Source of the DNA: Meiothermus sp. Pnk-1
GTDB lineage: Bacteria > Deinococcota > Deinococci > Deinococcales > Thermaceae
Reading direction: 5' to 3'
DNA: 64,000 nucleotides
Assembly: GCF_003226535.1 (NCBI RefSeq)
Contig: NZ_QKOB01000002.1
Coordinates: 1-64,000, forward strand
The number at the start of each line of letters is the position of its first letter. Positions within the stretch are counted from its first letter, which is position 1. Shown piece after piece: positions 13,235-38,117 of the stretch. The notes under the pieces are model-generated. The model ran no database searches and had not been told where the DNA came from. It saw nothing but the letters and a program-made list of their open reading frames with translations. Made by a program: the position numbers and the translations under genes.

Positions 13235-14008
13235 TCAAAACAGCAGCCGTAGCCCGCCTAGGAGGGCCAGCCCCAGCACCAACCGCTCAAAGAGCGCCTG
13301 GTCCATCTGGCGAAGCATCCAGCGCCCCCACAAGGCCCCCACCCCCACCGCGGGGGCCAGCAGCAAGTCGACCTGCAAGGTCTGCCAGCTGATCAGGCCG
13401 AGCCCCACCGCGAACGGTAGCTTGAAGAGGTTGACGGCCAGAAAAAACCAGGCGGTGGTGCCTACGAACTCGAGCTTGTCTAGCCGCATGGCCAACAGAT
13501 AGAGGGTGGTGAACGGCCCGGCGGCGTTGGCTACCATCGTGGTGACGCCGGCCGATAGGCCCATGCCGAGGGTGAACACCCAAGAGGCCGAAGGTAGATT
13601 CCCTGTCGGGACGGCGTACCGCCGTACACCTACAAGTGGGGGGCGATCCCGGAAACGCTGCGCGAGCTGGTAGACCGTCATCGCCACGATCAACCCCCCG
13701 ATCACCCCCCGAAGCTCGGCGTCGTCGATCACGGCCAGCACTCCCACCCCCAGCAGGATGCCTGCAGCGGTCCAAGGGAAAAGCCGCCAAAGCCGCGGCC
13801 AGTTGACGTGCTGGCGCAGCAATGTCACCGCCAGGAGGTCACCTACGATCAGCACCGGGAGCAGCGCCCCGGTGGACTCCCTGGCCGGGAAGATCTGGGC
13901 GAAAAGGGCAACCGCCAGGATTCCTCCGCCGGGCACCCCCGACTTCGAGGCTCCTACAATTAAGGCCGCAAGGACGGCTACAGACCAAGATGCTGGGGTC
14001 AGTTCCAC
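13235..14008 (-). CDS. TauE/SafE-type sulfite/anion permease with repeat insertion
   Basis: A 257-residue multi-helix permease of the TauE/SafE (DUF81) family, members of which export sulfite, sulfoacetate or related anions. Family traits are the N-terminal VGASKSGVPGGGILAVALFAQIFPARESTGALLPVLIVGDL and the repeated half GLSAGVTTMVANAAGP. Residues ~120-138 (GVRRYAVPTGNLP) are encoded by an interspersed palindromic repeat (13593-13630) inserted in-frame in the cytoplasmic loop between the halves. GTG start with GGGGAGG nine bases upstream. The gene lies antisense between recF and dciA. Confidence 0.85.
   Translation of the reverse strand: MELTPASWSVAVLAALIVGASKSGVPGGGILAVALFAQIFPARESTGALLPVLIVGDLLAVTLLRQHVNWPRLWRLFPWTAAGILLGVGVLAVIDDAELRGVIGGLIVAMTVYQLAQRFRDRPPLVGVRRYAVPTGNLPSASWVFTLGMGLSAGVTTMVANAAGPFTTLYLLAMRLDKLEFVGTTAWFFLAVNLFKLPFAVGLGLISWQTLQVDLLLAPAVGVGALWGRWMLRQMDQALFERLVLGLALLGGLRLLF
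13593..13630 (-). repeat. palindromic repeat unit inside the TauE gene
   Basis: Minus-strand unit GGTGTACGGCGGTACGCCGT then CCCGACAGGGAATCTACC, matching the tandem units at 21185-21305. It is read in-frame within the permease gene without a stop. Confidence 0.8.
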
Positions 14009-14092
14009 CGAGCTTGACCTCCCCGCTTTGCGGCGAAAGCGGCGTCTCGGCTCTCAACATACCGCCTCCCCCTCCCAGTAGACTAAGCCCCG

Positions 14093-14908
14093 ATGGTTAG
14101 GCGCAGCTCCAACGTCCACCGGCCCGCCGAACTTCTGGGAAAAATTCTCAAGACCCATGGCCTCGAGCACGGCTTCAGGCGGGGCAAGGCGCTGGCCCTT
14201 TGGCCCAAGGTGGCGGGGGAGATGCTGGCCCAGATGAGCGAGGCAGCCGCACTCGAGGACGGCGTGTTGATGGTCTATGTTCCTGATTCGGCGGCGGCCT
14301 TTCACCTCAAATTCCAGCGCGAGGAATTCCTCAGGCGCTATGAAAAGCACCTGCCTGGCACCGTAACCGATATCCGCTTTCGGGAAAGGCGCTTGGTGGG
14401 CAAAGCGGCGGACAAGGCCCAGCCCGCCCCTCCACCCCCCCTCTCCCCCGAGGAGGAGGCGCGGTTGCGGGCTTTGGCCGACAAGACCCCCGGGGAACTC
14501 AAGGCTGCCGTGTACCGGGCCGCCCGGGCGGTCTTGCAGCGGCAAAAGCTCTCTCCGCATCCTCCCTGCGTGATCTGTGGCTCGCCTGAGCCGGAAAACC
14601 CCTGTAAAAACTGCCAGCGGCTCCTGGGAGACCCCGCCGTAAAGCGCGAGGCCAGTCGGCTCATCCGCAAGCCGCTCCACCCCCGGCTCGAGGGGGAACC
14701 CCTCCAGGCGGCCAAATATCTGGCTCAGATGCGCCTCGAGGCCCAGCTTCGCGAGTTGCTCCCGCAGGTGGTCAAGGAGCCCCATCTGGTAGCGGTTTTG
14801 CAGGATACGGCCCGCCGCTACTTGCAACTTCGCGCGGGACAGCCCGAGGTCAGACCCTATCTCCACCTCCTCCCCGAGACCTTGCGCCAGTTCCTCAAAG
14901 AGCTCTAG
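14093..14908 (+). CDS. dciA: DciA-like protein (DUF721) with zinc ribbon
   Basis: A 271-residue protein with an N-terminal DUF721/DciA KH-like domain (ELLGKILKTHGLEHGFRRG, ALWPKVAGEMLAQ, then LMVYVPDSAAAFHLKFQREEFL). DciA loads the replicative helicase in bacteria lacking DnaC. A second part holds a CVIC...CKNC four-cysteine motif near residues 160-178, likely a zinc ribbon, and a helical C-terminus. TAGACT lies eight bases before the ATG. Proximity to recF supports the assignment; the zinc-ribbon extension is not in the standard DciA. Confidence 0.8.
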   Translation: MVRRSSNVHRPAELLGKILKTHGLEHGFRRGKALALWPKVAGEMLAQMSEAAALEDGVLMVYVPDSAAAFHLKFQREEFLRRYEKHLPGTVTDIRFRERRLVGKAADKAQPAPPPPLSPEEEARLRALADKTPGELKAAVYRAARAVLQRQKLSPHPPCVICGSPEPENPCKNCQRLLGDPAVKREASRLIRKPLHPRLEGEPLQAAKYLAQMRLEAQLRELLPQVVKEPHLVAVLQDTARRYLQLRAGQPEVRPYLHLLPETLRQFLKEL

Positions 14909-14911
14909 GCG

Positions 14912-15637
14912 CTACAGCTCATACTGGTGTGCGGTGAGGGCCAGACGGCGGCGGCGCTCCTCGTAGTCGGGCATGATTTGGCCCAGCAGACGCCAGAAAG
15001 CGGGAGAGTGGTCGAAGATGAGCAAATGGCATACCTCGTGGGCTACCACGTAATCGAGGAGGAGCGAAGGGGCCATCATGAGCCGCCAGTTGAAGCGCAG
15101 CTCGCCCTTGAGGTTGCAGCTACCCCACCGCGAGCGCTGGTCGCGGATATACACCGCTTGGGGGGTGCGGCCGAGCTGTCGGCTGTAAAACTCCACCCGC
15201 GCGGGAATGCGCTCGAGGGCTCGGCCTTCATACCAGACCTCGAGGAGTTTGCGGGCGGTGCTGGCGGTGTTGGCCCAAACCTGAAAGCTACCGCCCCATA
15301 GCCGTATGGCAGGCCCCTCTTCCTCCGGTAAGCGCTCGAGGGTATAGCGCCGCCCCAGGTATAAAAGCGGTTCCCCGGTCGTGAATTTGCGCCTTGGCGG
15401 CAAGCCCATCTTGGCGAACTCGTTCTGCTTTTTCACGATCCAGGGGGCTTTGGAGAGCACGAAATCCTGCAAGGTTTCTAGGCGAACTCGATGAGGAGCG
15501 CTTACCAGTACCCGCTCGGCGTCCACCTGCAGGCCCACGGTGCGCCGCCTGGAACTGCGCCGGATCTCAAAGACGATCCGGCGCTGCCCAAACTTGACCT
15601 GGCCCCGCTCTTTATCCACTGCCCGCACCGTTTTCAC
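14912..15637 (-). CDS. YgjP/SprT-like zinc metalloprotease
   Basis: A 241-residue protein of the YgjP (DUF45, M48-related) family. The zinc motif HEVCHLLIFDHSPAFW gives HExxH plus a third histidine, and upstream is the family's SRWGSCNLKGELRFNWRL. Members are cytoplasmic, and one homologue clips nucleic-acid-associated substrates, but function here is open. GTG start; no strong Shine-Dalgarno. It converges with dciA (3 bases between stops). Confidence 0.88.
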   Translation of the reverse strand: MKTVRAVDKERGQVKFGQRRIVFEIRRSSRRRTVGLQVDAERVLVSAPHRVRLETLQDFVLSKAPWIVKKQNEFAKMGLPPRRKFTTGEPLLYLGRRYTLERLPEEEGPAIRLWGGSFQVWANTASTARKLLEVWYEGRALERIPARVEFYSRQLGRTPQAVYIRDQRSRWGSCNLKGELRFNWRLMMAPSLLLDYVVAHEVCHLLIFDHSPAFWRLLGQIMPDYEERRRRLALTAHQYEL

Positions 15638-15911
15638 CCCTTTGGGTTCCAGCGTGGGTAAACCCGGATGCCCCGGTGAGCCGAGGTGCTTTTTGTTCTA
15701 CATCCTCCGACTCCCTGGGGCCAGAGGGGGGGCACAATTAAGATCGCTGCGGCGAACATTACGCCCACGGCATAACCCCCCTCCGGCTGGGAGGGCGTAG
15801 GGGTGGACCTCGAGCCAAAACCCTCTCGGTCTTAAGACCTAGGCTGCCCTCCGCCCAGGGCATGAGGTGTTCCGAGGGCCGCTTTTCTAGGCTAGGGCCA
15901 AGGAGGAGAGC
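15638..15911. other. intergenic stretch, no gene recognised
   Basis: Between the divergent metalloprotease and the SDR operon. It holds GC-rich imperfect inverted repeats (CCCTCC/GGGAGGG around 15,777-15,795) but no clear promoter with both boxes, no tRNA and no long ORF. Confidence 0.5.
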
Positions 15912-16028
15912 ATGCCATACCCCCTCACCCCGCTAATCCGAACTGCCCGGAAGGGTACCGGCGAACCGACCTGGCTTGATGGGGCGCGTGTTCACGGTAA
16001 AGGTCAGGTGGAACCATGCCCCGCGTAG
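15912..16028 (+). CDS. possible 38-residue upstream ORF overlapping the SDR start
   Basis: ATG with a strong AAGGAGGAG directly upstream (15900-15908); the peptide begins MPYPLTPLIRTARKG and ends GQVEPCPA. Its stop (16026-16028) lies inside the next gene, overlapping the SDR ATG (16016) in another frame. The SDR itself has only a weak Shine-Dalgarno, so the ORF may couple translation. The peptide is unlike anything recognised and codon choice is unremarkable; it could be chance. Confidence 0.35.
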   Translation: MPYPLTPLIRTARKGTGEPTWLDGARVHGKGQVEPCPA

Positions 16029-17110
16029 CCCTCATCACCGGAGCCAGCCGGGGGCTGGGGCTGGCGCTCGCCCGAGCCCTGGCCGAGAAAGGCTGGGCGC
16101 TGGTTATCGACGCCCGGGGGGCCGAAGCGCTGGAATATGCTCGAGCCGAACTCGCCGGAAAGGCGCAGGTGGTGTCGATCCCCGGTGACGTGTCGAATGA
16201 CTGGCACCTCCAAGCCCTGGTCGAAGCCGCACAGGAGCTCGGCGGCCTCGACGCCGTGGTCAACAACGCCTCGATCCTGGGGCCGAGCCCCCAGCCTCGC
16301 CTCGCCGAGTATCCCCTCGAGGGGCTCGAGCAGGTCTACCGGGTCAACGTTCTGGCCCCCTTGCGGCTGATCCAGCTTGCCCTGCCGCTGCTGAAGCCGG
16401 GAGGCTGCATCCTCAACATCACCTCCGACGCGGCGGTGGAGGGCTACGCGGGCTGGGGTGGGTACGGCTCGAGCAAAGCTGCGCTCGAGCAGCTTTCGAA
16501 GGTCCTCGCTGCCGAGCACCCCGAGTTCCGGGTCTACTGGGTGGACCCCGGGGACATAAACACTCGGATGCACCAAGAAGCTTTTCCCGGGGAGGATATC
16601 TCGGACCGGCCTCCCCCCGAGACCAGCGTCCCCGGGCTGTTGAAGCTGATCGAAGGCAAGCTGCCCAGCGGGCGCTACAAGGCCCGCGAGATCGGACAAA
16701 AACGGCAGGAGATCCAGGGGTTGCGCATCGCCCTCGCCGTGAATGATTTTGAGCGGGCGGCTCACTTCTACCGAGACGGGCTGGGCCTCGCAGCGCTCGA
16801 GGAGTGGAACCGCCCCGAGGGCCGGGGGCTGATCTTGGACGCTGGGCGGGCCACGCTCGAGCTGCTCGATGTTTCCCAGGTCGAGACGGTGGACCGGATC
16901 GAAGCCGGGAGGCGGGTCTCGGGGCCGGTGCGCCTTGCCTTTGAGGTGGAACACCTAGAGGCGGTGGCGCAGGCCCTGCAAGAAGCTGGAGCCGAGGCGA
17001 TCCATCCGCCCGTTCGCACCCCTTGGGGTGACCGTAACCAGCGCTTGCGGGCTCCGGACGGGATGCAGATCACCCTCTTCCGAGCAAAAGCCAAGGAGCC
17101 GATTTCATGA
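16016..17110 (+). CDS. short-chain dehydrogenase fused to a VOC/glyoxalase domain
   Basis: A 364-residue two-domain protein. Residues 1-~225 form an SDR: cofactor loop TGASRGLGLAL, NNAS motif, catalytic Ser region NITSDAAVEG, and active site YGSSKAALEQL (YxxxK intact). Residues ~238-358 form a vicinal-oxygen-chelate domain (LRIALAVNDFERAAHFYRDGLGL ... WGDRNQRLRAPDGMQITLF). This fusion is unusual. The stop overlaps the following QueA-like gene by ATGA, so the two are translationally coupled and may act together on an unknown substrate. Confidence 0.85.
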   Translation: MPRVALITGASRGLGLALARALAEKGWALVIDARGAEALEYARAELAGKAQVVSIPGDVSNDWHLQALVEAAQELGGLDAVVNNASILGPSPQPRLAEYPLEGLEQVYRVNVLAPLRLIQLALPLLKPGGCILNITSDAAVEGYAGWGGYGSSKAALEQLSKVLAAEHPEFRVYWVDPGDINTRMHQEAFPGEDISDRPPPETSVPGLLKLIEGKLPSGRYKAREIGQKRQEIQGLRIALAVNDFERAAHFYRDGLGLAALEEWNRPEGRGLILDAGRATLELLDVSQVETVDRIEAGRRVSGPVRLAFEVEHLEAVAQALQEAGAEAIHPPVRTPWGDRNQRLRAPDGMQITLFRAKAKEPIS

Positions 17111-18243
17111 GGCTGAGGGAGACTTCTCTGGATTTCGTGTTGCCCGCCGAACTGGAGGCCCACGAACCCCCCGAGGCCCGTGGCCTGGAGCGCGACCAGG
17201 TTCGGCTGATGGTCTCGTACCGCTCGAGCGATCGCTTGGTGCACACCCGCTTCCGCGAGATTCCCCAATACCTCGGGGCTGGGGACGTGCTGGTCATCAA
17301 CACCTCGGGCACCTTGCCCGCCGCGCTCCCGGCGACCGCGGAAGATGGGAGGGAGCTGCGGCTGCACCTCTCGAGCCGGCTTCCGGGTGGAGTGTGGACG
17401 GTGGAGTTGCGAACCCCTGTCTCCGCTACCGAGGGAGGGGAGCAAGCCCTGACCACCAAGCCGTTCTTCGGGGGGCGGGTGGGGGAGACTTTGGGCCTGC
17501 CGGGCGGGGCCTCGGCCACGCTGCTGGCGCGGTATCGGCTAGGGCTAGAGGGGGCTACAGAGACGCCAGGCCCGGAGCGCTTCACTCCGCTACATAGCGG
17601 GGAATCCCGTCTGTGGATCGCCGCCCTCGAGATCCCTCACGGCCTACAACCCACCGCCTACCTCCTCGAGCACGGCCAGCCCATCCGCTACAGCTACGTG
17701 CCGCAGCCCTGGCCCCTCGAGTTCTATCAGACCGTCTACGCCACCGAGCTGGGCAGCGCCGAGATGCCCTCGGCGGGGCGGGCCTTCACCCCGCAGATCA
17801 TCACCCGGCTGGTGGCCCAAGGAGTGCAGGTGGCGCCGCTGCTGCTGCACACCGGGGTGGCCTCACTGGAGGAGCACGAGCCGCCCTACGAGGAGTTCTA
17901 CCGCGTTCCCCCGGAGACCGCCCGCTTGGTCAACCAAGCCCGGGCGGATGGCCGGCGGGTCATAGCGGTCGGTACCACCGTGGTGCGGGCTTTGGAGACC
18001 GTCACCGATGTTTACGGTGTGCTCCACCCCGGCGAGGGCTGGACCAAGCTCGTCATCACCCCCCAGCGCGGGGTGCGGGCGGTGGACGGTATCCTCACCG
18101 GCTGGCACGAGCCCAAGGCCACCCACCTGCTGATGCTCGAGGCGATCGCCGGGAAACGGCACGTGGAAATCGCGTACCGAGCCGCACTGCGCGAACAATA
18201 TCTATGGCACGAGTTTGGCGACCTGCACCTGATTCTGCCCTAG
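17107..18243 (+). CDS. QueA-family protein, divergent paralogue
   Basis: A 378-residue member of the S-adenosylmethionine:tRNA ribosyltransferase-isomerase family. Recognisable blocks are LGAGDVLVINTSGTLPA (QueA: PGDLLVxNDTRVIPA), YQTVYATELGSAEMPSAGRAFT (QueA: YQTVYA..GSVAAPTAGLHFT), LLLHTGVASL and VGTTVVRALET. The AxTAGLHFT motif of true QueA is changed to MPSAGRAFT, and the first block also drifts. Translational coupling to an SDR-VOC fusion is not a queuosine context. A role other than tRNA modification is inferred; a queuosine function cannot be excluded. Confidence 0.8.
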   Translation: MRLRETSLDFVLPAELEAHEPPEARGLERDQVRLMVSYRSSDRLVHTRFREIPQYLGAGDVLVINTSGTLPAALPATAEDGRELRLHLSSRLPGGVWTVELRTPVSATEGGEQALTTKPFFGGRVGETLGLPGGASATLLARYRLGLEGATETPGPERFTPLHSGESRLWIAALEIPHGLQPTAYLLEHGQPIRYSYVPQPWPLEFYQTVYATELGSAEMPSAGRAFTPQIITRLVAQGVQVAPLLLHTGVASLEEHEPPYEEFYRVPPETARLVNQARADGRRVIAVGTTVVRALETVTDVYGVLHPGEGWTKLVITPQRGVRAVDGILTGWHEPKATHLLMLEAIAGKRHVEIAYRAALREQYLWHEFGDLHLILP

Positions 18244-18346
18244 CAATGAGGCAAGGGTCGCGACGGAAATCCGTGGACAGAAGATAGCGGGAAATGCATT
18301 TCAAACCTGCTCGAGGGCGACAAGGCAAGCTATCCAGGAGGTAAAG

Positions 18347-18688
18347 ATGACCTATTACCTGATGCGGGCCAAAGCCAAGGGCAACTTGGCAGAACTCAAA
18401 AGGCGCCTGGACGGGGGCGAAATCCAGGTTATGCGTATGCGGCCCTTCAGGGCCGCGCTGGACGATTCGCTGCAGGGGGCCCGGCTCGAGCCCGACGGAA
18501 CTTGGGTCTGGGAAAGACAAGACTACTGCGTGCCGCCCCTGGCAATGGAGCGGGCAGCGGTGCTCGATACCTACTTCGAGGAAATCGTGGCGTTGTCTCG
18601 TGGCGCTAGCCGGGTGGTCGAGACCGTGCAGAAGGGTCAGGGCCGGAAACGGCTCGAGGGCTTGCCGAGCGCCTGGGGGAAGCAGTGA
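18347..18688 (+). CDS. small conserved-looking protein, unknown
   Basis: A 113-residue soluble protein (begins MTYYLMRAKAKGNLAELKRR) not assigned to a family. It has a good Shine-Dalgarno (AGGAGGTAAAG) and overlaps the following NTF2-like gene by four bases (GTGA), so the pair is coupled. Composition is mixed, with a basic C-terminus (KGQGRKRLEG). Codon choice resembles its neighbours, supporting a real gene. Confidence 0.65.
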   Translation: MTYYLMRAKAKGNLAELKRRLDGGEIQVMRMRPFRAALDDSLQGARLEPDGTWVWERQDYCVPPLAMERAAVLDTYFEEIVALSRGASRVVETVQKGQGRKRLEGLPSAWGKQ

Positions 18689-19053
18689 CCCGCGAAGGGG
18701 TGCAAGCCTGGCTCTCCTTTCTGGGGCAGGCCTGGGAAGAAGCCGATGCCGAGCGGGCAGCTGCGCTGTTTGATCCCCAGGTCAGCTATCAAGAAAACCC
18801 CTTCAACCCACCCATTCAGGGGTTTGAGGCGGTGCGGCGCTACTGGCGGGAGAACTTGGCCACCCAAAGAGCCGTGAAATTCGAGGGGTGGGTTTTAGCG
18901 GTGGATGGCGAGGTCGCAGTGGTGAACTGGAGGGTGGGGTTTGTCCGAGTGCCCGGCGATGAGTATGTCCGGCTGGATGGGGTGAGCGTGGGCCATTTCG
19001 GCGCCGAAGGTAAGCCGGTGCTGTGGCGCGAGTGGTGGCACCGGGAAGAATAA
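18685..19053 (+). CDS. NTF2/SnoaL-like protein
   Basis: A 122-residue protein with the cone-shaped NTF2-like fold signature: LSFLGQAWEEADAERAAALFDPQVSYQENPF, then GFEAVRRYWRENL and a strand-rich end (VAVVNWRVGFVRV ... DGVSVGHFGAEGKPVLWREWW). Such proteins are small isomerases, hydrolases or ligand-binding proteins; the substrate is unknown. The GTG start overlaps the previous stop. Confidence 0.75.
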   Translation: MTREGVQAWLSFLGQAWEEADAERAAALFDPQVSYQENPFNPPIQGFEAVRRYWRENLATQRAVKFEGWVLAVDGEVAVVNWRVGFVRVPGDEYVRLDGVSVGHFGAEGKPVLWREWWHREE

Positions 19054-19057
19054 GGGT

Positions 19058-19141
19058 ATGGCAGAGCGCGTTGTCATCGTTGCCGGAGGCGACACAGGGA
19101 TGGGCCGGGTTGCCCAGGGTTTCGTGCAAGCTAAGAAATAG
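19058..19141 (+). CDS. 27-residue ORF resembling a Rossmann N-terminus
   Basis: Begins MAERVVIVAGGDTGMGR and ends AQGFVQAKK, then TAG. The GGDTGMGR loop looks like the first turn of an SDR cofactor site, as if a gene had been cut off after ~25 codons. It ends six bases before the kinase ATG, which has no Shine-Dalgarno, so it might couple kinase translation. Either a gene relic or a short real ORF. Confidence 0.3.
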   Translation: MAERVVIVAGGDTGMGRVAQGFVQAKK

Positions 19142-19147
19142 CCTGTT

Positions 19148-20308
19148 ATGGTTATCCAGCTGGATCAAAACCGCCTCGAGCGCCGCCTCAAGGAGCTTTC
19201 CACCCTCAACCGCATCCTCGAGGTGCTCAACTCCGAGGCCGATTTCGAGCGGGCGCTCGAGACCGCCTTGCACGAGCTGGTAGAACTGCTGGGCCTTAGC
19301 ACCGGCTGGGTCTTCCTGACCCGGATGGAGCCGGGGGACGCCCACCAGGGCGGCTTCAGCCTGGCCGGGTTTGCCGGGTTGCCTCCCGCGCTCGATCGGG
19401 AAGAGCAGGCCTGCTTGCGCGAAGCCGGTTGCGACTGCCAATGGCTTTTCAAAAAGGGCCGCTTGGATAAGGGAGTGAACATCGTGGAGTGCAGCCGCCT
19501 CGAGAAGGCTAAGGGCGACAAAGGCGGCCTCGAGGTCCACGCTAGCGTGCCGATCCTGGCCGAGTCCGGGCCGGTGGGCATCCTGAACCTGGCCTCGCCC
19601 GGTCCCGACCCCTTCGACCCCGAGACCCTGGAGTTTCTAACCGCGGTAGGCCGGGCGTTGGGGCTGGCCTTCAAACGGGCCCGGCTTCAGGAGCAACGCA
19701 CCCGCGAGCGCGAAGCCCTGGCCACCTTGGAAGAGCGCGCCCGGCTGGCCCGGGAGATGCACGACTCGGTGGCCCAGCTTCTGTTCGCTGCTGACCTCTC
19801 GCTGCGGGTGGCCCGGGAGGGGCCGAGTGGGCCGCGGGAAGTGGCCCTCGAGCGCTCCGCTCTTCTGGTGGCCTCGGCGTTGGACGAACTGCGGGGCCTG
19901 GTCGAGCTGCTGCGCCCCGCCGATCTTTCGCAAGGGCTCGAGGCGGCTTTATGCCGCCTGGCCGAGCGGGTCAGCGGGTCGGTGCGGGTCCACTTTGAAT
20001 CGCTCGCCCACAACCTTCCCGAAGAACTGGCCGAAACCCTCTACCGCATCGCCCAGGAGGGGGTGCATAACGCGCTCAAGCACGCCAAGGCCAAGAACAT
20101 CTGGATTCGTATTGAAAAAAAGCCCCGGCTGGTGCGTTTGCGGGTGGAAGACGATGGCAAGGGTCTACCTCCCAGGTTCAGCCGGGGCCTGGGGCTTTTA
20201 TCGCTGGAGGAGCGGGCCAAGAGCCTTCAGGGAACCCTCCGGCTCGGCAACCGTCCAGGGGGTGGGGCCAAGCTCGAGGTGGTATTCCCGATCTCCTTCA
20301 AGGGTTGA
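19148..20308 (+). CDS. GAF sensor histidine kinase with cysteine cluster
   Basis: A 386-residue NarL-group (HPK7) kinase without membrane segments: an N-terminal helix, a GAF domain (~20-180), HisKA_3 with the phospho-acceptor in REMHDSVAQLLFAADLSLR, and an HATPase domain (N box EGVHNALKHA, G1 VEDDGKGLP, G2 GLGLLSLEERA). The GAF contains C89, C95, C97 and C115 (CX5CXCX17C, ending VNIVECSRL). This resembles the [2Fe-2S]-binding GAF of the AirS oxygen/redox sensor, so redox sensing is inferred. It is followed four bases later by its response regulator. Confidence 0.88.
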   Translation: MVIQLDQNRLERRLKELSTLNRILEVLNSEADFERALETALHELVELLGLSTGWVFLTRMEPGDAHQGGFSLAGFAGLPPALDREEQACLREAGCDCQWLFKKGRLDKGVNIVECSRLEKAKGDKGGLEVHASVPILAESGPVGILNLASPGPDPFDPETLEFLTAVGRALGLAFKRARLQEQRTREREALATLEERARLAREMHDSVAQLLFAADLSLRVAREGPSGPREVALERSALLVASALDELRGLVELLRPADLSQGLEAALCRLAERVSGSVRVHFESLAHNLPEELAETLYRIAQEGVHNALKHAKAKNIWIRIEKKPRLVRLRVEDDGKGLPPRFSRGLGLLSLEERAKSLQGTLRLGNRPGGGAKLEVVFPISFKG

Positions 20309-20312
20309 ACTC

Positions 20313-20927
20313 ATGCCGCTGCGTTTGCTCATCGTGGATGATCATCCCATAGTTCGGGAAGGGCTCAAGGCCTTTTTGGGGCTTTATCCTGACCTCGAGG
20401 TGGTGGGGGAGACCGATAGCGGTGAAGAGGCGCTGAACAAGAGCCGCGCGCTCTCTGCGGATCTGGTCTTGCTCGATCTTCAGCTTTCCGATGGGCACGG
20501 CCTCGGCTTCTTGCCTCGCTTCCTATCTCTTCCCAACCCGCCTAAAGTCTTGATCCTGACCAGCTTTCTCGAGGAGGACAGCCTGCGCCAGGCCCTCAGC
20601 CTGGGGGCCTCGGGCTACCTGGTCAAGCACGCCGGGCCGGTGGCCTTGCTCGAGGGCATCCGCGCAGCAGGCCGGGGTGAGGTACCCCTAGACCCTGCGG
20701 CGGTGCGGCTTCTGACCCGCCCGGCCCCAAACCCGCTCGCCAGCCTGACCCCTAAAGAGCGCGAAGTCCTCTCGCACTTGGCCCAGGGGATGAGCAACAA
20801 AGCCATCGCCCAGGCCCTGGGGGTGAGCGAGAAAACCGTCAAGACCCACGTCAGCAGCCTCCTCGCCAAGCTGAACCTCAAGGGGCGTACCCAGGCGGCA
20901 CTTTTTGCCAAGGAACAGGGGCTCTGA
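20313..20927 (+). CDS. LuxR/NarL-type response regulator
   Basis: A 204-residue two-domain regulator. The receiver has the acidic pair in IVDDHP, the phospho-acceptor Asp in LVLLDLQLSDG, the Thr/Ser switch in LILTS and the Lys in YLVKHAG. The C-terminal LuxR HTH is LTPKEREVLSHLAQGMSNKA then VSEKTVKTHVSSLLAKL. It is cotranscribed with the GAF kinase and is presumed to be its partner. ATG at 20313, four bases after the kinase stop. Targets unknown; no binding sites were identified. Confidence 0.93.
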   Translation: MPLRLLIVDDHPIVREGLKAFLGLYPDLEVVGETDSGEEALNKSRALSADLVLLDLQLSDGHGLGFLPRFLSLPNPPKVLILTSFLEEDSLRQALSLGASGYLVKHAGPVALLEGIRAAGRGEVPLDPAAVRLLTRPAPNPLASLTPKEREVLSHLAQGMSNKAIAQALGVSEKTVKTHVSSLLAKLNLKGRTQAALFAKEQGL

Positions 20928-21064
20928 ATAGACGCCCCGTTCGAAGCGTTTCACTTCCTGCGTGCCTGGCTGGACAGCGCTGGCCCGAAAGGGGTACGGA
21001 TCCGACCACGAGCCGCGTCAGGACCGGAATACAAGACAGAACCCGCATGGCCTTCACATTCCAC

Positions 21065-21094
21065 TTCGTACGCCGTACGCAAAACGCTAAACGC
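21065..21094 (+). repeat. heptamer tandem repeat
   Basis: TTCGTAC, GCCGTAC, GCAAAAC, GCTAAAC, then GC. Same heptamer family as 38927-39003. Confidence 0.7.
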
Positions 21095-21102
21095 GGGGTG
21101 CT

Positions 21103-21123: not shown

Positions 21124-21184
21124 CTGGGGTGGTGTGTTGGTGTACGTCATACGTTGTACGTCGTACGAAGGAGATCGGTCCCTA

Positions 21185-21305
21185 GGTGTACCGGTTCCGC
21201 CGGTCCCGAAGGGAATCTACCTCCGGGTGTACGGAGCTTGCTCCGTCCCGATAGGGGATCGTCCCTTGGGTGTACGGCAGTACGCCGTCCCGTAGGGGAT
21301 CGTCC
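21185..21305 (+). repeat. three tandem palindromic repeat units
   Basis: Units 21185-21221, 21226-21264 and 21269-21305. Shared plan: GGTGTACGG (or CGG variant), a 6-8 base variable loop that closes a stem, CCGTCCCG, then AGGGGATCGTCC (AGGGAATCTACC in the first unit). The arms covary between units (CGGAGC/GCTCCG versus CGGC/GCCG), as expected for a conserved hairpin. Confidence 0.85.
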
Positions 21306-21310
21306 CCCGC

Positions 21311-21359
21311 GTTTAGCGTCTGGCGTTTTGCGTATTGCGTATGACCTACGACGTCTAAG
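21311..21359 (-). repeat. heptamer tandem repeat, inverse orientation
   Basis: Read on the plus strand: GTTTAGC, GTCTGGC, GTTTTGC, GTATTGC, GTATGAC, CTACGAC, GTCTAAG. It is the complement of the heptamers at 21065-21094. Confidence 0.7.
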
Positions 21360-28850: not shown

Positions 28851-28856
28851 CAAGGG

Positions 28857-31086: not shown

Positions 31087-31091
31087 CGTTG

Positions 31092-32276
31092 CTAGCGGAA
31101 GCGGGCCAGCAGGTTCCGCGCGATGATGACCTTGAGCACCTCGGTGGTCCCCTCGCCGATGCGCATCAGCCGGGCGTCGCGCCAGTAACGCTCGACCGGG
31201 TACTCCTTGATGTAGCCGTAACCACCCAGGATCTGGATGGCCTCGTCGCAGGCCCGCACCGCCACCTCGGAGGCGAACATCTTGGCCTGGGCGGCCTCGC
31301 CGGAGAAGGGTCGGCCAGCGTCTTTGAGCTCGGCAGCCCGCAGGTAGAGGAGCCGGGCCGCTTCCAAGTTGGTGGCCATCTCGGCCAGCTTGAAGGAGAC
31401 CCCCTGGAACTCGGCGATGGGCTTGCCGAATTGTTCCCGCTCGAGGGCGTACTTGGCGGCGAACTCGAGCGCGGCCCGGCCCAGCCCCACCGAGAGCGCG
31501 GCGATCCCGATCCGCCCCCCATCGAGAACCCTCAGCACATCGTAGAAGCCTTTGCCCCGCACCCCCAGCAAGGCGTCTTTCTCTAGGTGTAGCTCCTCGA
31601 AAAGCAGTTGCGCGGTGTCGGAGGAGTGCAGGCCCAGCTTCTCTTCCTTGCGGCCTATGCGCAAGCCCTCCACCGGGCCGTAGAAGACGAAGGCCGAAAG
31701 CCCCAGGTGTTTCTTATCCTCGCTGGGGGCAGGGTCGGTGCGGGCATTGATTACGTAGACCCCAGCCACCGAGCCCTGGGTGATGAACTGCTTGGAACCG
31801 TTCAGGACGAAGCCCTCCGGGGTCTCCCGGGCTCGAGTGCGCATCGCCGCAGCGTCCGAACCGCTGCCGGGCTCGGTGAGGCCCCAGGCCCCCAGCATCT
31901 CGGCGGTGGCCAGTTTGGGTAGGTACTCGCGCTTTTGCGCTTCGTTTCCGGCGATCAGGATGTGTCCGGTGCACAGCGAGTTATGCGAGGCCACGGTCAG
32001 GCCCAACGAACCGTCCACGCTGCCGATCTCCTCGAGCATTCGGGCGAACACTCGGGTAGAGAGTCCGGCCCCCCCGTACTCCTCGGGCACGTTGGCCCCC
32101 ATCACGCCGAGTTCCCCTAGCTTTTTTACGATCGCCCAAGGGAACTCCCCCGTCCGGTCGCGCTCGGCAGCCCCTGGAGCCACCTCGGCCTTAAGAAAGT
32201 CGCTCAGCGCCCCCAGGATCTGCCGTTCTTCGGCGTCTAGCTCCCACCACAGCTCGCGGCTTTTTTCGGTCAACAT
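31092..32276 (-). CDS. acyl-CoA dehydrogenase
   Basis: A 394-residue flavoenzyme that oxidises acyl-CoA at C2-C3. Signatures [17 protein letters not shown] and [33 protein letters not shown] (split over ~350-385) are complete; the catalytic base is the Glu of RIGEGTTEV, as in short/medium-chain enzymes. It is the first gene of a two-gene transcript with the MNIO-like gene. TATATT lies six bases before the ATG (32288-32283), and the AT-rich upstream region could hold a TetR-type operator, though none was identified. Confidence 0.95.
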
Positions 32277-32349
32277 GAAATTAATATAACACTTTCTCGT
32301 TGGTAAATTGTAAAAACGTCATATGATCAGACGCACCCTCGGACTGCCG

Positions 32350-32355
32350 TATAAT
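32350..32355 (+). promoter_or_regulatory. -10 box of a leaderless transcript
   Basis: A consensus TATAAT seven bases before the ATG at 32363. Confidence 0.65.
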
Positions 32356-32362
32356 CGCGGAG

Positions 32363-33865
32363 ATGGCGTTGCTGGACGGGAAATACACCGCGACGGAAGA
32401 TTTGGGCACCCAAGGGTTCCTGCGCACCTACCGGGTGCGGGCGGGGGAGCTCCAGGGTACCTTGTATTGGTTCGAGGTTCATACCCCCGAAGCGAGAAGC
32501 GCCTTTCACCGTTACCGCAACGCCCTCAAACGCCTCGAGGCCCTGGGCGCCACCCCGAGCGCCCTGGAAATATCCGCCAAACCGGGTCGCTACTACGTGT
32601 TCTGGCCAGATCTCGCGGCCCCCTCACCGGGGCGCCTTCCCAAACGCACCCGGCTCGGCCCTTGGCTCGAGGCCCTCTCCCCTTTCGGCTACAGCGAAAG
32701 GGATTTCCAGCTGGGTGAACAAGACGGCAAGCCGGTGCTGGCCGACCTCAACCCGCTGGCGGGGCTGGCCGGTGGTAGCAAAGCCAGCCCCACCCGGTCC
32801 GAGGCTCCTGGCGGACGGGCGGTTACCCCCGCGCCTGCGCCCGGCAGCGATGCGGCCCGAGTCCGCTCGTCGCGCCACTACCGCTTCAACTGGCCGGCCT
32901 GGGTTCCGGGGCTGGTGCTGATGTTCTTGGGTGGGCTGGCGCTATTTCTGGGGGCCGAGCGCTACCTGAACCCACCCCAATACATCCTGCCCGATCTGCA
33001 CGGCAAAACCCCCCGCCAGGCGGTGGAGGCGGTGCGGGGGATGGGGCTGAGGGTAGAGTTCGTAGAGGGCAGCGACCAGAGCCAACCCAAGGAGACCATC
33101 CTCGAGCAAAGCCCCGAGGCGGGCAGCATCGTCAAGCCGGGGCGCCGGCTCGAGCTAGTCCTCAACCGCCCCAAGCTAGGTAGCGTCCCCACCCTGGTAG
33201 GCCGCCCGCTCGAGGACGCCCAGCGGGCCCTGGAGACCGCCGGTTACGTGGTGGGGCCGATAAGCCGGGTCTCCGCCGAAGCCACCGCCGGGACCGTGCT
33301 GGCCAGCCTGCCCGCCCCCGGTACCGAGCTGCGCCAGGGGGAGAGCGTCCGGCTGTTGGTTTCCACCGGGCCCCGGTCATCCCTCGACACCATCCTGCCC
33401 GACCTCACCGGGCTCACCCTGGAGGACGCCCAGTACCTGCTCAACATCGCCGAGCTGAAGCCCCAGGTGTCCCGGGTGGCCTCGGGTGCGCCGGAGGGTC
33501 AGGTGCTCGCCCAGCAGCCCAACCCCGGTACGCTGATGAACAAGAATGCCGTGGTGCGGCTAACCGTGGCGGCCCAGCCCGCCGTTTCCCTCCCGCAAAA
33601 CTCTCCCTTCGCTCCCTCCTCCCGCCCCGAGCCCCAGGCCGAGGTGCGCAACGTCCCCCTCAGCGTTACCCTGCCTTCGGACCAGGAAGGCGCTCAGGTC
33701 CGGCTCACCGTGGACGACGCCAACCCGCCGACACGGGTTCTCTACGAAGGTCCCCTTCCCCCCGGCGGGCGGATCGAGGTGGCGGGAGGGGTCCCGGTAC
33801 AGGGCAACGCTACCTTCCGGCTGTACGTCAACGGCGAACTCTACCAGGAGTGGACCAACCCATAA
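32363..33865 (+). CDS. membrane protein with three PASTA domains and no kinase
   Basis: A 500-residue protein. The N-terminal ~150 residues faintly recall a protein-kinase N-lobe (FEVHTPEARSAFHRYRNALKRLEALG) but lack the catalytic HRD and DFG motifs. A single membrane helix follows (WVPGLVLMFLGGLALFLGAE, ~182-201), then three PASTA repeats (YILPDLHGKTPRQAVEAVRG, SVPTLVGRPLEDAQRALETA, TILPDLTGLTLEDAQYLLNI) and a C-terminal beta-rich domain. PASTA domains bind muropeptides; this looks like a PknB relative reduced to a sensor or scaffold. The thiamin operon follows after its own promoter. Confidence 0.85.
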   Translation: MALLDGKYTATEDLGTQGFLRTYRVRAGELQGTLYWFEVHTPEARSAFHRYRNALKRLEALGATPSALEISAKPGRYYVFWPDLAAPSPGRLPKRTRLGPWLEALSPFGYSERDFQLGEQDGKPVLADLNPLAGLAGGSKASPTRSEAPGGRAVTPAPAPGSDAARVRSSRHYRFNWPAWVPGLVLMFLGGLALFLGAERYLNPPQYILPDLHGKTPRQAVEAVRGMGLRVEFVEGSDQSQPKETILEQSPEAGSIVKPGRRLELVLNRPKLGSVPTLVGRPLEDAQRALETAGYVVGPISRVSAEATAGTVLASLPAPGTELRQGESVRLLVSTGPRSSLDTILPDLTGLTLEDAQYLLNIAELKPQVSRVASGAPEGQVLAQQPNPGTLMNKNAVVRLTVAAQPAVSLPQNSPFAPSSRPEPQAEVRNVPLSVTLPSDQEGAQVRLTVDDANPPTRVLYEGPLPPGGRIEVAGGVPVQGNATFRLYVNGELYQEWTNP

Positions 33866-33868
33866 ACC

Positions 33869-33898
33869 TTGACGCGACCCTCCGCCGTCTAATAGCAT
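33869..33898 (+). promoter_or_regulatory. thiamin operon promoter
   Basis: -35 TTGACG (33869-33874) with -10 TAGCAT (33893-33898, spacer 18) or TAATAG (33890-33895, spacer 15). Transcription would begin just before the TPP riboswitch. Confidence 0.55.
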
Positions 33899-33910
33899 CG
33901 AGGTGATCGG

Positions 33911-33998
33911 CTAGGGGTGCCCCCGCGGGGGCTGAGAACAGGGCGAGCCCTGTAACCCTTGGAACCTGATCCGGTTAGTACCGGCGGAGGGAAGCCCG
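33911..33998 (+). promoter_or_regulatory. TPP riboswitch (THI box)
   Basis: Canonical TPP-binding leader: GGGGTGC (33914-33920), GGCTGAGA (33930-33937), an arm ACAGGGC-GAG-CCCTGT, ACCCTT then GAACCTGATCCGGTTAGTACC and GGCGGAGGGAAGC. It stands directly before thiE and controls the six-gene thi operon, lowering expression when thiamin diphosphate is plentiful. Confidence 0.97.
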
Positions 33999-34032
33999 TG
34001 AAAGTATCCCCACAACCCTACCCATACCCTTT

Positions 34033-34060
34033 CCTCCTGGCCCCTGGCCGGTCCGGGAGG
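34033..34060 (+). promoter_or_regulatory. hairpin hiding the thiE Shine-Dalgarno
   Basis: CCTCCTGG (34033-34040) can pair with CCGGGAGG (34053-34060, one G-U pair), burying the GGGAGG ribosome site of thiE. There is no U-run after it, so it fits a riboswitch acting on translation rather than termination. Confidence 0.6.
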
Positions 34061-34067
34061 TGATTTT

Positions 34068-34724
34068 CTGTTAGGCAAGCTGTACTTGGTGGCCAGCCCC
34101 CGGCCTGGCCAGCCGCAAGCGGAGCTGCTGAACCGCCTCGAGGCCGCCCTGGAGGGCGGGGTCGAGCTGCTGCAGCTGCGGGCCAAGGACCTTGAGGCGG
34201 GTGTTTCGCTGCGCGAAAGCAGCGAGGCCCAAGCCATCCTCGAGCTCGGCGAGAAGCTGCGGGAGCTGTGCGGGCGTTATCGGGTGCCGCTGGTGATCAA
34301 CGACCGCCCCGACCTGGCGGCCTTGCTGGAAGCCGACGGGGTGCACCTGGGGCAGGGGGACCTGAGCGTGGCCCAGGCCCGGCGCTTCTTCGCGGGCTGG
34401 ATCGGCCGCAGCACCCACGAACCCGCACAGGCCCTGCGCGAGCAGGCCGCGCTCGAGGGGGGCGAGGGCTACCTTTCGGTGGGGCCGGTCTGGGAGACCC
34501 CCACCAAGCCCGGACGGCCCGCGACGGGGCTGGATTATGTGCGTTGGGCAGCGCATAACCTTCGGGTTCCCTGGTTCGCCATCGGGGGCATCGACGAGCA
34601 CACCCTGCCCAAGGTGCTGGAGGCCGGGGCCCGCCGGGTGGCGGTGGTGCGGGCCATCCTGGACGCTCCGGACCCCGAGGGGGCGGCCAAGCGCCTGCGG
34701 AGGTGGCTGGATGGTGTGGATTAA
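34068..34724 (+). CDS. thiE: thiamin-phosphate synthase
   Basis: Joins HMP-diphosphate and thiazole phosphate into thiamin phosphate. TIM-barrel motifs: LQLRAKD, PLVINDRPDLAALLEADGVHLGQGDL, IGRSTHEPAQA, YLSVGPVWETPTKPGRPATGL and WFAIGGIDEHTLPKVLEAGARRVAVV. The first beta strand (LYLVASP) lies upstream of every ATG/GTG/TTG candidate except a TTG that would remove it; with GGGAGGTGA at 34055-34063 the likely start is a CTG at 34068, a rare start codon that should lower expression. Overlaps thiS by 14 bases. Confidence 0.9.
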   Translation: MLGKLYLVASPRPGQPQAELLNRLEAALEGGVELLQLRAKDLEAGVSLRESSEAQAILELGEKLRELCGRYRVPLVINDRPDLAALLEADGVHLGQGDLSVAQARRFFAGWIGRSTHEPAQALREQAALEGGEGYLSVGPVWETPTKPGRPATGLDYVRWAAHNLRVPWFAIGGIDEHTLPKVLEAGARRVAVVRAILDAPDPEGAAKRLRRWLDGVD

Positions 34725-34917
34725 CGGCAAGGCCGTGGAGGCCGAGGGGAAGAGCCTGGGCGAGGTGGTCGAGGCGGTGTGCCGCCAGCGGGGGATAAGC
34801 CCCGAGGCGGTCGCGGTGATGCTCAACGACGAGGTCTGGGTCAAAGGCCGCTGGCCGGATCGCCCCCTGGTGGCGGGGGACGTGGTGGAGGTCGTGGCCA
34901 TGATGCAGGGAGGCTAG
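34711..34917 (+). CDS. thiS: sulfur carrier protein ThiS
   Basis: A 68-residue ubiquitin-fold sulfur carrier for thiazole synthesis. It begins [11 protein letters not shown] and ends in the required di-glycine (VVAMMQGG), whose carboxylate becomes the thiocarboxylate. It overlaps the 3' end of thiE; a GGAGG in thiE provides the ribosome site. It precedes thiG, its partner, by two bases. Confidence 0.95.
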
Positions 34918-34919
34918 CC

Positions 34920-35717
34920 GTGAGCGAGCTGGTGATCGCCGGGCAGCGCCTGAGAAGCCGCCTGTTCGTGGGCACGGGCAAGTACCGCGACTTCGCGCTG
35001 ATGCGGGAGGCGCTCGAGGCCTCCGGGGCCGAGGTGGTGACCGTCTCCGTCCGGCGCGTCGAGGCGGGGGCGGCGGGGCATTCGGGCCTGCTGGAGGCGC
35101 TGGAGGGGGGGCGCTACCGGCTCTTGCCCAACACCGCTGGAGCCCGCACGGCCCTCGAGGCCCTGCGCCTGGCCCGGCTGGGGCGGGCCATCACGGGGAG
35201 CGACTGGGTCAAGCTGGAGGTCATCCCCGACCCCGACTACCTGCTGCCCGACCCCCTCGAGACCTACCGCGCCGCCGAAGCCCTGGTGCAGGAGGGCTTC
35301 AGGGTGCTGCCCTACATCGCCCCCGATCCAGTGCTGGCCCAGCGGCTGGCCCGGCTGGGCTGCGCCACCGTGATGCCCCTGGCGGCCCCCATCGGCTCGG
35401 GGCAGGGCCTCAGGAACCGGGCCATGCTAGAAATTTTCGCACGGCAGCGCGCCCAGTTGCCGCCCGTGGTGGTGGACGCCGGGCTGCGCTGGCCCTCGGA
35501 GGCCGCCGGGGCGATGGAGCTGGGGGCCGACGCGGTACTGGTCAACACCGCCATCGCCGAGGCCCAGGACCCCGTGGCCATGGCCGCGGCCTTCGGCCAG
35601 GCGGTCGAGGCGGGACGCAAGGCTTACGAGGCCGGCCCCATGCCCCAGCGCGCCTTCGCCAGCCCCTCCAGCTCGACCCAGGGCGTGCCCCTGCCCCAGC
35701 CGGAGGAGCCTCTATGA
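34920..35717 (+). CDS. thiG: thiazole synthase
   Basis: A 265-residue TIM-barrel enzyme forming the thiazole ring from DXP, dehydroglycine and ThiS thiocarboxylate. Family motifs: [22 protein letters not shown], the Schiff-base lysine in [24 protein letters not shown] and [28 protein letters not shown] (lysine/glycine usage slightly altered from the usual DAGIGTPSDA). GTG start with GGGAGG upstream. Stop overlaps the thiO ATG. The DXP it uses could come from dxs in this window. Confidence 0.96.
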
Positions 35718-36721
35718 GCGAGGTCGTGGTGGTGGGGGGCGGCCTCATCGGCAGCCTCATCGCTTACCGGCTAGGCCAGGCGGGGCTCGAGGTCACCCTG
35801 CTGGAGGCGGGCAAGGCCGGGCAGGCTACCCGGGCCTCGGCGGGCATGCTGGCCCCCCACGCCGAGGGCCTTAGCGGGGAGCTGCTGGAGTGGGCCCGGG
35901 AAGGGCTCGAGGGCTACCCCGAACTCGCCCGCGAGCTCGAGGCCGCCAGCGGGATCGAGGTGCCCGTGGTCCTGAGTGGCGTCTGGAGCGGGGTTCGCTC
36001 CCCGCTCCGGGGCTGGGAGGCCCTGCGGGGCCTCGAGCCCCACCCCGGCGGCTACCTCGACCCGGTGCGGCTGCTGGCCGCCGTGCAGAAAGCCTTCGTG
36101 AGCCTGGGCGGCACCATATGCAGGGAAGAGGCCCTGCACCTCGAGCCCGGCTGGGTGTACACCGCTGCCCAGTACACGGACACCGCCCGTCCCGAGAGGG
36201 GATCGTCCGCCTGGTGTACGGGTGCAACCCGTCCTGCGCCACGCCAAGGCGCGGCGTGGGGATCGTCCACCCGGCGCATCGCGGCCCGCCAGATCGTCAT
36301 CGCCAGCGGGGCCTGGTCGGGCCGCTTCGGCCTGGAGGTGCGCCCGCTCAAGGGGGAGGCCCTGCTGCTGGCCGCCCCGCCGCCCTCCGGCCCGGTGTTC
36401 GCGGGGGCGGGCTACGCCTTGCCGCGCGGGGCGCAGGTCTATTTGGGGGCCACCCAGCGCAAGGGCTGGCCGCCGGGCGTGGAGGCGGAGGGACTGCGCT
36501 GGCTGCAACACTACCGCGACACCCACTTCCCCCACCTTCGCGGCGCCGCGGTCCTCGAGCGCCGCTGGGGTTACCGCCCGGCGGGCCCCCTCACGGTGGG
36601 GCAGCTCGAGCCGGGCATCCTGGCCGCCACCGGGCACGGGCGCAACGGCATCCTGCTGGCCCCGGCCACCGCCCGCCGCATCCGCGAACTGGTGTTGAAG
36701 TCCTGGAAGACACGCCGATAA
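35714..36721 (+). CDS. thiO: glycine oxidase ThiO with repeat-derived insert
   Basis: A 335-residue FAD enzyme supplying dehydroglycine for thiazole synthesis. The FAD loop [20 protein letters not shown] is at the N-terminus; [14 protein letters not shown] and, late, [16 protein letters not shown] are typical. Residues ~147-188 (from [11 protein letters not shown] to WGSSTRR) are encoded by interspersed palindromic repeats (36172-36268) and have replaced or interrupted the strand region that normally precedes VIASGAW. The reading frame stays open. Whether the enzyme is active is not decidable from sequence. Confidence 0.9.
36172..36268 (+). repeat. two palindromic repeat units inside thiO
   Basis: Unit one (36172-36208): GTACACGGACACCGCCCG then TCCCGAGAGGGGATCGTCC. 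Unit two (36213-36268): GGTGTACGGGTGCAACCCG, TCC, an extra hairpin GCCACGCCAAGGCGCGGCG, then TGGGGATCGTCC. A GTGTAC/GTACAC inverted pair at 36154-36177 marks the left side. All in frame with thiO. Confidence 0.85.
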
Positions 36722-36733
36722 AAAGGAGCCAAC

Positions 36734-38071
36734 ATGACCCAACTGGAAGCCGCCCGCAAGGGCATCGTCACCGAAGCCATGGCCTACGTGGCCGAGCAGG
36801 AGGGGCTCGAGCCCCAGTTCGTGCGGGAGCAGGTGGCCGCGGGGCGGGTGGTCATCCCCGCCAACCCCAACCACCGCACCCTGACCCACTTCACCGCCAT
36901 CGGCGAGGGGATGCGGGTCAAGGTCAACGCCAACCTGGGCACCTCCTACGACTTCGCCGACCCCGAACAGGAGGTGCGGAAGGTCCAGGTGGCCATCGAA
37001 GCGAGCGCGGACACCGTGATGGACCTCTCCACCGGGGGCGACCTGGAGCGCATCCGCCAGATGACCCTAAAGGCCAGCACCGTCCCGCTGGGCACGGTAC
37101 CCATCTACGAGGCCGAATTCCAGGCCGCCCGACGCAAGAGCGTCTTCGACATGACCGCCGACGAGCTGCTGGAGGTCATCGAGCGGCATGGCCGCTCGGG
37201 GGTCGATTACATCACCGTGCACGCCGGGGTGACCCAGGAGAGCCTGCGCCGCTACCGCAACGGCTCGAGGGTCACCGGCATCGTCTCGCGGGGGAGCGGG
37301 ATGCTGGCGGCCTGGATGCTGCGCAACGAGCAGGAAAACCCGCTGTGGGAACGCTTCGACGACGTGCTCGAGATCGCCCGTAGCTACGACATGACCCTCT
37401 CGCTGGGCGACGGGCTGCGTCCGGGCTCTCTGGCCGACGCGACCGACCGCGCCCAGATCCAGGAACTGCTGCTGGTGGGCGAGCTGGTCGAGCGCGCGCG
37501 CCGGGCCGGGGTACAGGCCATGGTCGAGGGGCCAGGGCACATCTCGCTGAACGAGATCCAGGCCAACGTGCAGTTGCAGAAGAAGCTCACCGGCCACGCG
37601 CCCTTCTACATCCTGGGCATGCTCCCCATCGATACCGGGGCGGGGTTCGACCACATCGCGGGGGCCATCGGCGGGGCGGTCGCGGGCTGGCACGGGGCCG
37701 ACCTGCTGTGCTACCTCACCCCGGCCGAGCACCTGGCCCTGCCCACGCCCGAGCAGGTGCGCGAGGGGGTGATCGCCTTCAAACTCGCCGCCCACGTCGC
37801 CGACGTGGCCCGGGGCCACCCCGCCGCCCTCCTCCGCAACCGCCAGATGAGCCAGGCCCGCTACGCCCTCGACTGGGAGCGCCAGTTCGAGCTGTGCCTG
37901 TTCCCCCAGGAAGCCCGCAGGCTCTACCAAACCCGCGCCACCCGGACCAAGGCCTGCAGCATGTGCGGCCCCTTCTGCCCGATGAACCTGGTCGAGGCCG
38001 TGCTGCGCGGCCAGGCCCGCCTGAGCGACTACCCGGCTTTCGCCGCGAAAACGCCCCTCGAGCCCGCCTGA
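36734..38071 (+). CDS. thiC: phosphomethylpyrimidine synthase
   Basis: A 445-residue radical-SAM-like enzyme converting AIR to HMP phosphate. Motifs: VNANLGTSYDF, STGGDLERIRQM, DYITVHAGV, SRGSGMLAAWML and VEGPGHISLNEIQANV. The C-terminal iron-sulfur site reads CSMCGPFCPM, i.e. CX2CX3C as read from the DNA, one residue shorter than the CX2CX4C of longer ThiC proteins. Shine-Dalgarno AAAAGGAG before the ATG. Sits fifth in the thi operon. Confidence 0.96.
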   Translation: MTQLEAARKGIVTEAMAYVAEQEGLEPQFVREQVAAGRVVIPANPNHRTLTHFTAIGEGMRVKVNANLGTSYDFADPEQEVRKVQVAIEASADTVMDLSTGGDLERIRQMTLKASTVPLGTVPIYEAEFQAARRKSVFDMTADELLEVIERHGRSGVDYITVHAGVTQESLRRYRNGSRVTGIVSRGSGMLAAWMLRNEQENPLWERFDDVLEIARSYDMTLSLGDGLRPGSLADATDRAQIQELLLVGELVERARRAGVQAMVEGPGHISLNEIQANVQLQKKLTGHAPFYILGMLPIDTGAGFDHIAGAIGGAVAGWHGADLLCYLTPAEHLALPTPEQVREGVIAFKLAAHVADVARGHPAALLRNRQMSQARYALDWERQFELCLFPQEARRLYQTRATRTKACSMCGPFCPMNLVEAVLRGQARLSDYPAFAAKTPLEPA

Positions 38072-38076
38072 ACCCC

Positions 38077-38117
38077 GGTGGACGATCCCCTCTCGGGACG
38101 GGCGGTGCCCGTACACC
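38077..38117 (-). repeat. palindromic repeat unit between thiC and thiD
   Basis: On the minus strand: GGTGTACGGGCACCGCCCG, TCCCGAGAGGGGATCGTCC, ACC. It fills almost the whole thiC-thiD gap and ends just before the AGGAGG ribosome site of thiD. Confidence 0.85.

Follow-up and report, generated by a model that had tools for sequence, protein, structure and literature searches.

A ~40-bp palindromic element of Thermaceae that probably inserts in 42-bp steps and is tolerated in frame within protein genes

How a short palindromic repeat can settle inside protein genes and leave them open is the question raised by a 64,000-nucleotide stretch of DNA from Meiothermus sp. Pnk-1 (contig NZ_QKOB01000002.1, positions 1 to 64,000), hereafter the window, in which seven copies of such a repeat are found, some of them in genes. 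The same question has accompanied the Rickettsia palindromic elements (RPEs), mostly reported at about 100–150 bp, since their discovery, and it has stayed open partly because these old elements live in obligate intracellular pathogens. The Thermaceae are a free-living, culturable and non-pathogenic group in which clean sites before and after insertion can be compared, the insertion size is exact, a target sequence can be named and frame selection has left a quantitative imprint. The mobilization of the element, its tolerance in enzymes such as TopA, RecJ and ThiO, and the missing enzyme are thereby opened to direct tests. As judged from sequence comparison, the repeat is probably a mobile, non-autonomous element some 40 bp long, borne by this family of bacteria, which is made of two hairpins, inserts in 42-bp steps at CCNC sites, builds direct-repeat arrays and has been selected to be tolerable in proteins. 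What is new is that pairs of genes before and after the event reveal the exact size of the insertion step; a search of the open literature, not an exhaustive one, found no description of such an element in Thermaceae, as the preliminary description of this locus had supposed.

The consensus of the element, YN-GGTGTAC-hairpin 1-GTCCC-GNNA-GGGGATCGTCC, spans about 40 bp, and a unit is composed, in this order, of GGTGTAC, a stem-loop of 11 or 12 nt, GTCCC, a linker of 3–4 nt (GATA, GACA, GAGA or GAA), and either GGGGATCGTCC or GGGAATCTACC. Each unit has two hairpins, namely the variable hairpin 1, whose stems start with AC/GT, and the short hairpin 2, with a 3-bp CCC/GGG stem and a loop of 3–4 nt. 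The motif CGTC occurs 1 nt from the 3′ end (GATCGTCC) and again before hairpin 2, with CTAC instead in variants of the Pnk-1 genome. Terminal inverted repeats were not found, the ends YNGGTGTACGG and GGGGATCGTCC not being inverted repeats of each other. Direct reading of the sequence bore out all seven units first described, with their positions and strands (Table 1), and their stem arms do covary: hairpin 1 has two-sided changes in 29 cells against 8.0 in shuffles, 96% of its cells are paired against 23–46% when the arms are slid, and its outer three pairs are formed in 53 of the 64 distinct hairpins taken from other genomes, the figure for shuffles being 26. Some units, genic ones included, have a further palindromic module inserted in the linker (GACGCTTCCTTCGCCGCCGGTAGGCGGGGTA or longer forms; loci L019, L026, L028, L030 and L154).

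Table 1. Repeat units of the window and the thiO segment missing from relatives
Feature	Coordinates	Strand	Evidence
Single 38-nt unit in TauE/SafE permease gene (13235–14008, minus)	13593–13630	-	In-frame reading GVRRYAVPTGNLP; model match 59.7 bits
Unit 1 of intergenic tandem array, 37 nt, tail GGGAATCTACC	21185–21221	+	Sequence, covariance model
Unit 2 of intergenic tandem array, 39 nt, tail GGGGATCGTCC	21226–21264	+	Sequence, covariance model
Unit 3 of intergenic tandem array, 37 nt	21269–21305	+	Sequence, covariance model
First unit in thiO (35714–36721, plus), four changes in 5′ part	36171–36208	+	Sequence, covariance-model match
Second unit in thiO, 56 nt, 18 extra bases in linker between hairpins	36213–36268	+	Sequence, orthologue comparison
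102-bp thiO segment (34 codons) missing from orthologues in four other Thermaceae genomes; empty site GTACACCG^CCACCCGG	36167–36268	+	
Single unit between thiC and thiD; thiD frame open through unit	38080–38117	-	Sequence, covariance model, empty site of relatives

The repeat is abundant in its own genome and apparently confined to its own family. Over the whole genome (3.51 Mb), the pattern GTCCCGN{1,3}AGGGGATCGTCC has 45 copies and the reversed pattern none. A covariance model trained on 31 units, with 150 of 2901 candidates scored, recovers no fewer than 141 units, grouped in 68 clusters. Within the order, 20 of 111 genomes have the pattern, all from one family and from three genera, Meiothermus, Calidithermus and Allomeiothermus; it is absent from the 27 genomes of a Thermus-like genus, from the one genome of a further genus (g5) and from the 61 genomes of other families. 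At the same settings, the model returns 5–45 copies in each of five positive genomes and no match at E≤1 in ten genomes of the Thermus-like genus or in two element-free genomes of another genus (g3). When 84,980 species were searched, the pattern recurred in Meiothermus and Calidithermus, and the single scattered matches in about 20 other genomes look like chance. No copy was found in a phage collection or in viral contigs, and a plasmid collection has two records with the repeat, both from Thermaceae. The preliminary description had proposed to look for the repeat in the genome and its relatives with a covariance model, and had named shared residues in orthologues of unrelated genera, or a failure of the repeat to recur, as findings that would speak against it; the repeat does recur, genome-wide and across the family, and orthologues lack the residues. 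Rfam has no family matching the repeat, and its only match nearby is a TPP riboswitch (79 bits) at positions 33903–34009 of the window, just upstream of the unit-bearing thi gene cluster.

Comparison with relatives gives the state of the window sites before insertion. Two Calidithermus and two Meiothermus-type genomes have thiO without the segment, and at the DNA level the insertion amounts to 102 bp, that is, two units, at GTACACCG^CCACCCGG, the flanks of the Calidithermus pair being 85–91% identical. By the measure of these orthologous sequences, the thiO insertion is proven, and so is that between thiC and thiD, where the empty site of the relatives, GGCCTCC^GGGG on the minus strand, is 41–42 bp shorter. 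None of the 16 relatives that give a full-length match has the tauE insert, but the loop there is of variable length, so that the empty site is not clean and the case is consistent with insertion. The alignment of orthologues that had been suggested showed, for ThiO, relatives without the insert and, for TauE, an absence without a clean site. The further claim that both genes stay open through their inserts, in different frames of the repeat, was upheld, the Pfam DAO match spanning the thiO inserts and the Pfam TauE match spanning that of tauE. Regarding the thi cluster (window 34086–38920), A. silvanus, a member of the same genus, yielded no homologue of its thiO, and the closest one is in Calidithermus, which suggests that the cluster was horizontally transferred.

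The size of one insertion can be read from pairs of filled and empty copies elsewhere in the family. A DDE insertion sequence has a unit in its transposase gene in one genome (G038) and none in near-identical copies of another (G039), the flanks being 99% identical and the difference 42 bp (L184 against L200); the other site in this insertion sequence is at L177. On plasmid pMESIL01 of Allomeiothermus silvanus DSM 9946, identified by a 100% match of the stretch searched, a copy of the insertion sequence carries two units, one per strand, each of them a 42-bp insertion. Moreover, 42 bp separate the TnpB locus L086 from L274 and L268, L251 from L255 (97–99% identical), L254 from L221, and L205 from L259, while a variant with a longer hairpin differs by 48 bp (L246 against L071), and two arrays, L189 and L209, differ by 126 bp, i.e., 3 × 42. 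Tandem arrays have a period of 42, the insertion size. Read from these pairs, single insertions are of exactly 42 bp (14 codons) at targets of CCNC form, with the target bases repeated on both sides over 2 to 4 bp, most simply as CCNC, and later copies adjoin the first at a 42-bp step, giving direct-repeat arrays. The A. silvanus chromosome holds twelve copies of the insertion sequence with identical match scores, all without units; the plasmid copy with its two units is diverged.

The nature of the target emerges from the flanks. In 75 flanks of other genomes, the left one, before GGTG, has the form CC-N-C-Y-N and the right one, after GATCGT, the form CC-N-Y. The free base N is identical on both sides in 46 of the 75 (25.7 expected), as are the 4-mers in 22 (8.4 expected, with a maximum of 17 in 5000 shuffles); once homologous sites are removed, bases -4 and +0 agree in 32 of the 47 non-redundant clusters that remain, where 17.2 would be expected (p<0.0002). 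The empty sites are CCNC, namely CCCC, CCTC or CCAC, with one case of CTTC (L261). The simplest reading of these sequences is a CCNC target, a 4-bp duplication and a 38-bp core, yet an element of 40 bp that duplicates 2 bp accounts for them just as well, since the CC on the flank belongs to every unit end, and either model sums to 42. The length of the duplication is uncertain, since half of the older empty/filled pairs have at least one mismatch between the target copies. A 5-bp duplication was tried and dropped in favour of CCNC. As the right junction always recreates CCNY, insertion beside an existing copy would build direct-repeat arrays; in every array found, the 2 to 6 units follow one another in direct orientation, with a period of 41–43 or 48.

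Of 56 copies in the other genomes, about 50 fall within open reading frames with coding base composition. Their host genes include topA (inside the catalytic domain), recJ, cse1, and the genes for ribonucleotide reductase, acyl-CoA dehydrogenase, phosphoglucomutase, a NuoL-like protein and a protein resembling thymidine/anthranilate phosphoribosyltransferase, and in TopA, RecJ and Cse1 the insertions fall within Pfam domains. One and the same DNA appears in unrelated proteins in several reading frames and on both strands. In most genomes the copies are located within protein genes, in frame and free of stops. The lengths of the units bear on how this came about. Outside the Pnk-1 genome, a hairpin of 11 nt goes with a linker of 4 nt (50 against 2) and one of 12 nt with a linker of 3 nt (40 against 2), which keeps the unit at 38 nt in 90 of 94 cases (p ~1e-21); 89 of 102 units have a length of 2 mod 3, which becomes a multiple of three with the 4-nt step. 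The intergenic arrays of Pnk-1 have no such association between hairpin and linker (27/59 and 5/13, p 1.0), and all six frames are open in 11% of their units, against 62% of the 38-nt units elsewhere. On this comparison, the length compensation is an imprint of reading-frame selection, with the qualification that the copies are non-independent and that two ancestral subfamilies could explain part of it.

Several genic copies are of interest in themselves. In the ribonucleotide reductase of Calidithermus roseus (L221, ORF 1–2901), the LAGLIDADG domain of an intein itself holds a unit in frame, so that one mobile element is nested within another. The RES-family gene of a Xre-RES pair bears a unit at an identical position in a Meiothermus-type chromosome (L069) and on an A. 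silvanus plasmid (L177:3356–3392), and a hydrogenase/complex-I-like operon of Pnk-1 (L154, C6:37700–46200) has in-frame units in at least four genes. A unit on the strand opposite to its gene is commoner than one on the same strand.

Two other accounts of the genic copies have to be weighed against insertion of a protein-tolerable element. That the residues are ancient parts of the proteins, alike by chance or through common low complexity, is scarcely credible: the coding sequence is GC-rich and the TauE loop is variable in length, both of which would suit this account, but the 45 exact copies against none in the control, the occurrence of the same DNA in several frames and on both strands of unrelated proteins, and the orthologues without insert all argue against it. 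It is refuted for thiO, the insertion sequence, TnpB and others, tauE alone being exempt. The presence of strong hairpins within essential, conserved genes might instead suggest that the inserts are excised from the transcript or bypassed in translation, as with the mitochondrial byps, and leave the proteins unchanged. This seems very improbable, because skipped or spliced inserts need not keep frame or avoid stops, whereas lengths of 2 mod 3, compensation between hairpin and linker, and frames open on either strand are what the units display.

For the mobile element itself, the following route may be envisaged. An enzyme acting in trans would make a staggered cut and insert the element, and because terminal inverted repeats are lacking it would perhaps recognise the folded single strand; genic insertions that are out of frame or bear stops would be purged, which would leave a family selected to be tolerable in proteins; and in the Pnk-1 genome the element would have expanded into intergenic arrays, with the frame constraint lifted and the modules reshuffled. 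A tentative extension, plausible though short of probable, is that the 42-bp quantum (about 40 bp plus target duplication, with 45- and 48-bp variants) and the stop-poor six-frame sequence were selected to colonise essential genes as 14-codon modules, moved by an undescribed enzyme that would recognise the folded 40-mer, free of inverted repeats, and make CCNC cuts of short stagger.

The mobilizing enzyme was not found among the Y1 transposases, which occur in the tested element-free Thermus-like genome too; of 16 Y1 loci in six genomes one has a unit nearby, and the single Y1 gene of Pnk-1 has none. A single-strand transposase of this kind, of RAYT or IS200/IS605 type, could move the element as for the GTAG-REPs, and the hairpins, asymmetric ends, small size and preferred sequence just 5′ of the element would agree with this, as would the unit adjoining one Y1 locus of C. 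chliarophilus and the strand bias of units between the two halves of the A. silvanus chromosome. We nevertheless consider it improbable, given that 15 of the 16 loci lack units, that the strand bias is not seen in a second genome (G040) and that a target duplication is supported here, while IS200/IS605 transposition is not known to produce any. The strand bias, with 12 of 15 A. silvanus clusters opposite to the replication fork, is not claimed, since it failed in G040.

Among known systems, the element works like the RPEs, a likeness drawn from behaviour: both are short palindromic mobile repeats found in frame in many unrelated protein-coding genes, as well as between genes (RPE-1, RPE-4 and RPE-6), and to this extent the first comparison made for the locus was apt. 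The Thermaceae element differs in its 42 bp per insertion, its readable size and target duplication, its direct-repeat arrays and its phylum; the length of RPEs is given as ~150 bp (PMC10969869). Other families share single traits with it. The GTAG REPs (RAYT/REPINs) are also palindromes of 20–40 bp dispersed in large numbers, but here the intragenic consensus has no GTAG end, 15 of 16 RAYT-type (Y1) loci have no unit beside them, most genomes have it mainly inside genes, and inverted pairs are lacking. Bacterial MITEs (RUP, NEMIS, ERIC) are likewise non-autonomous with a short target duplication, of which the element has one of 2–4 bp (CCNC), but it is of 40 bp against 70–300 bp and lacks terminal inverted repeats of 15–30 bp. 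The SNRs of Deinococcus radiodurans, mosaic intergenic repeats from the same phylum, are described as noncoding (PMC1978522) and are set apart by this description.

The nearest family in the literature is the CGTC-REP group, not reported from Deinococcota, with which the element has in common a hairpin, intragenic copies, intergenic mosaic arrays like those of NIME, and CGTC in the unit tail and before hairpin 2, which may correspond to the terminal unpaired CGTC of that group. The alternative tail GGGAATCTACC, moreover, presumably resembles the end of dRS3. In that group, RPE-4 and RPE-6 are filed together with the Neisseria dRS3, its members are likewise genic, and no transposase is known for them (PMC3733652), so that the element might belong to the same superfamily and spread by the same unknown route. 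We regard membership as unlikely, though less so than movement by a Y1 enzyme. CGTC-REPs are defined by stems of 8–9 bp beginning with AT pairs, a 4–5 nt loop and a CCA tail, and they occur predominantly as head-to-head dimers, head-to-tail ones being negligible (PMC3733652), whereas the units here have a 3-bp CCC/GGG stem in hairpin 2 and a second, variable hairpin, lack the AT-starting stem and the CCA tail, and are arranged head-to-tail in all arrays. Because the defining stem, tail and dimer arrangement are not found, the element is not filed as a CGTC-REP.

In the Pnk-1 genome, most clusters are intergenic modular arrays with common outer sequences and a restricted set of hairpins, while the copies of related genomes are mostly intragenic. 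The hairpin type says almost nothing about the tail type or about the hairpin that follows, and two identical hairpins are neighbours less often than expected (1 against 5.3), which suggests that recombination at the conserved words has reshuffled these arrays. The array near 21.2 kb of the window is flanked, like most arrays of this genome, by ACGTC-type words on its left and GCGTTTAGCG-type words on its right, and in A. silvanus the gene downstream of it is not adjacent at the corresponding place. Word tracts such as ACGTCATACG and GCGTTTAGCGTCTGGCGTTTTGCGTATTGCGTA, which are partly inverted repeats, bracket this array (window 21069–21098 and 21305–21334) and most others of the Pnk-1 genome.
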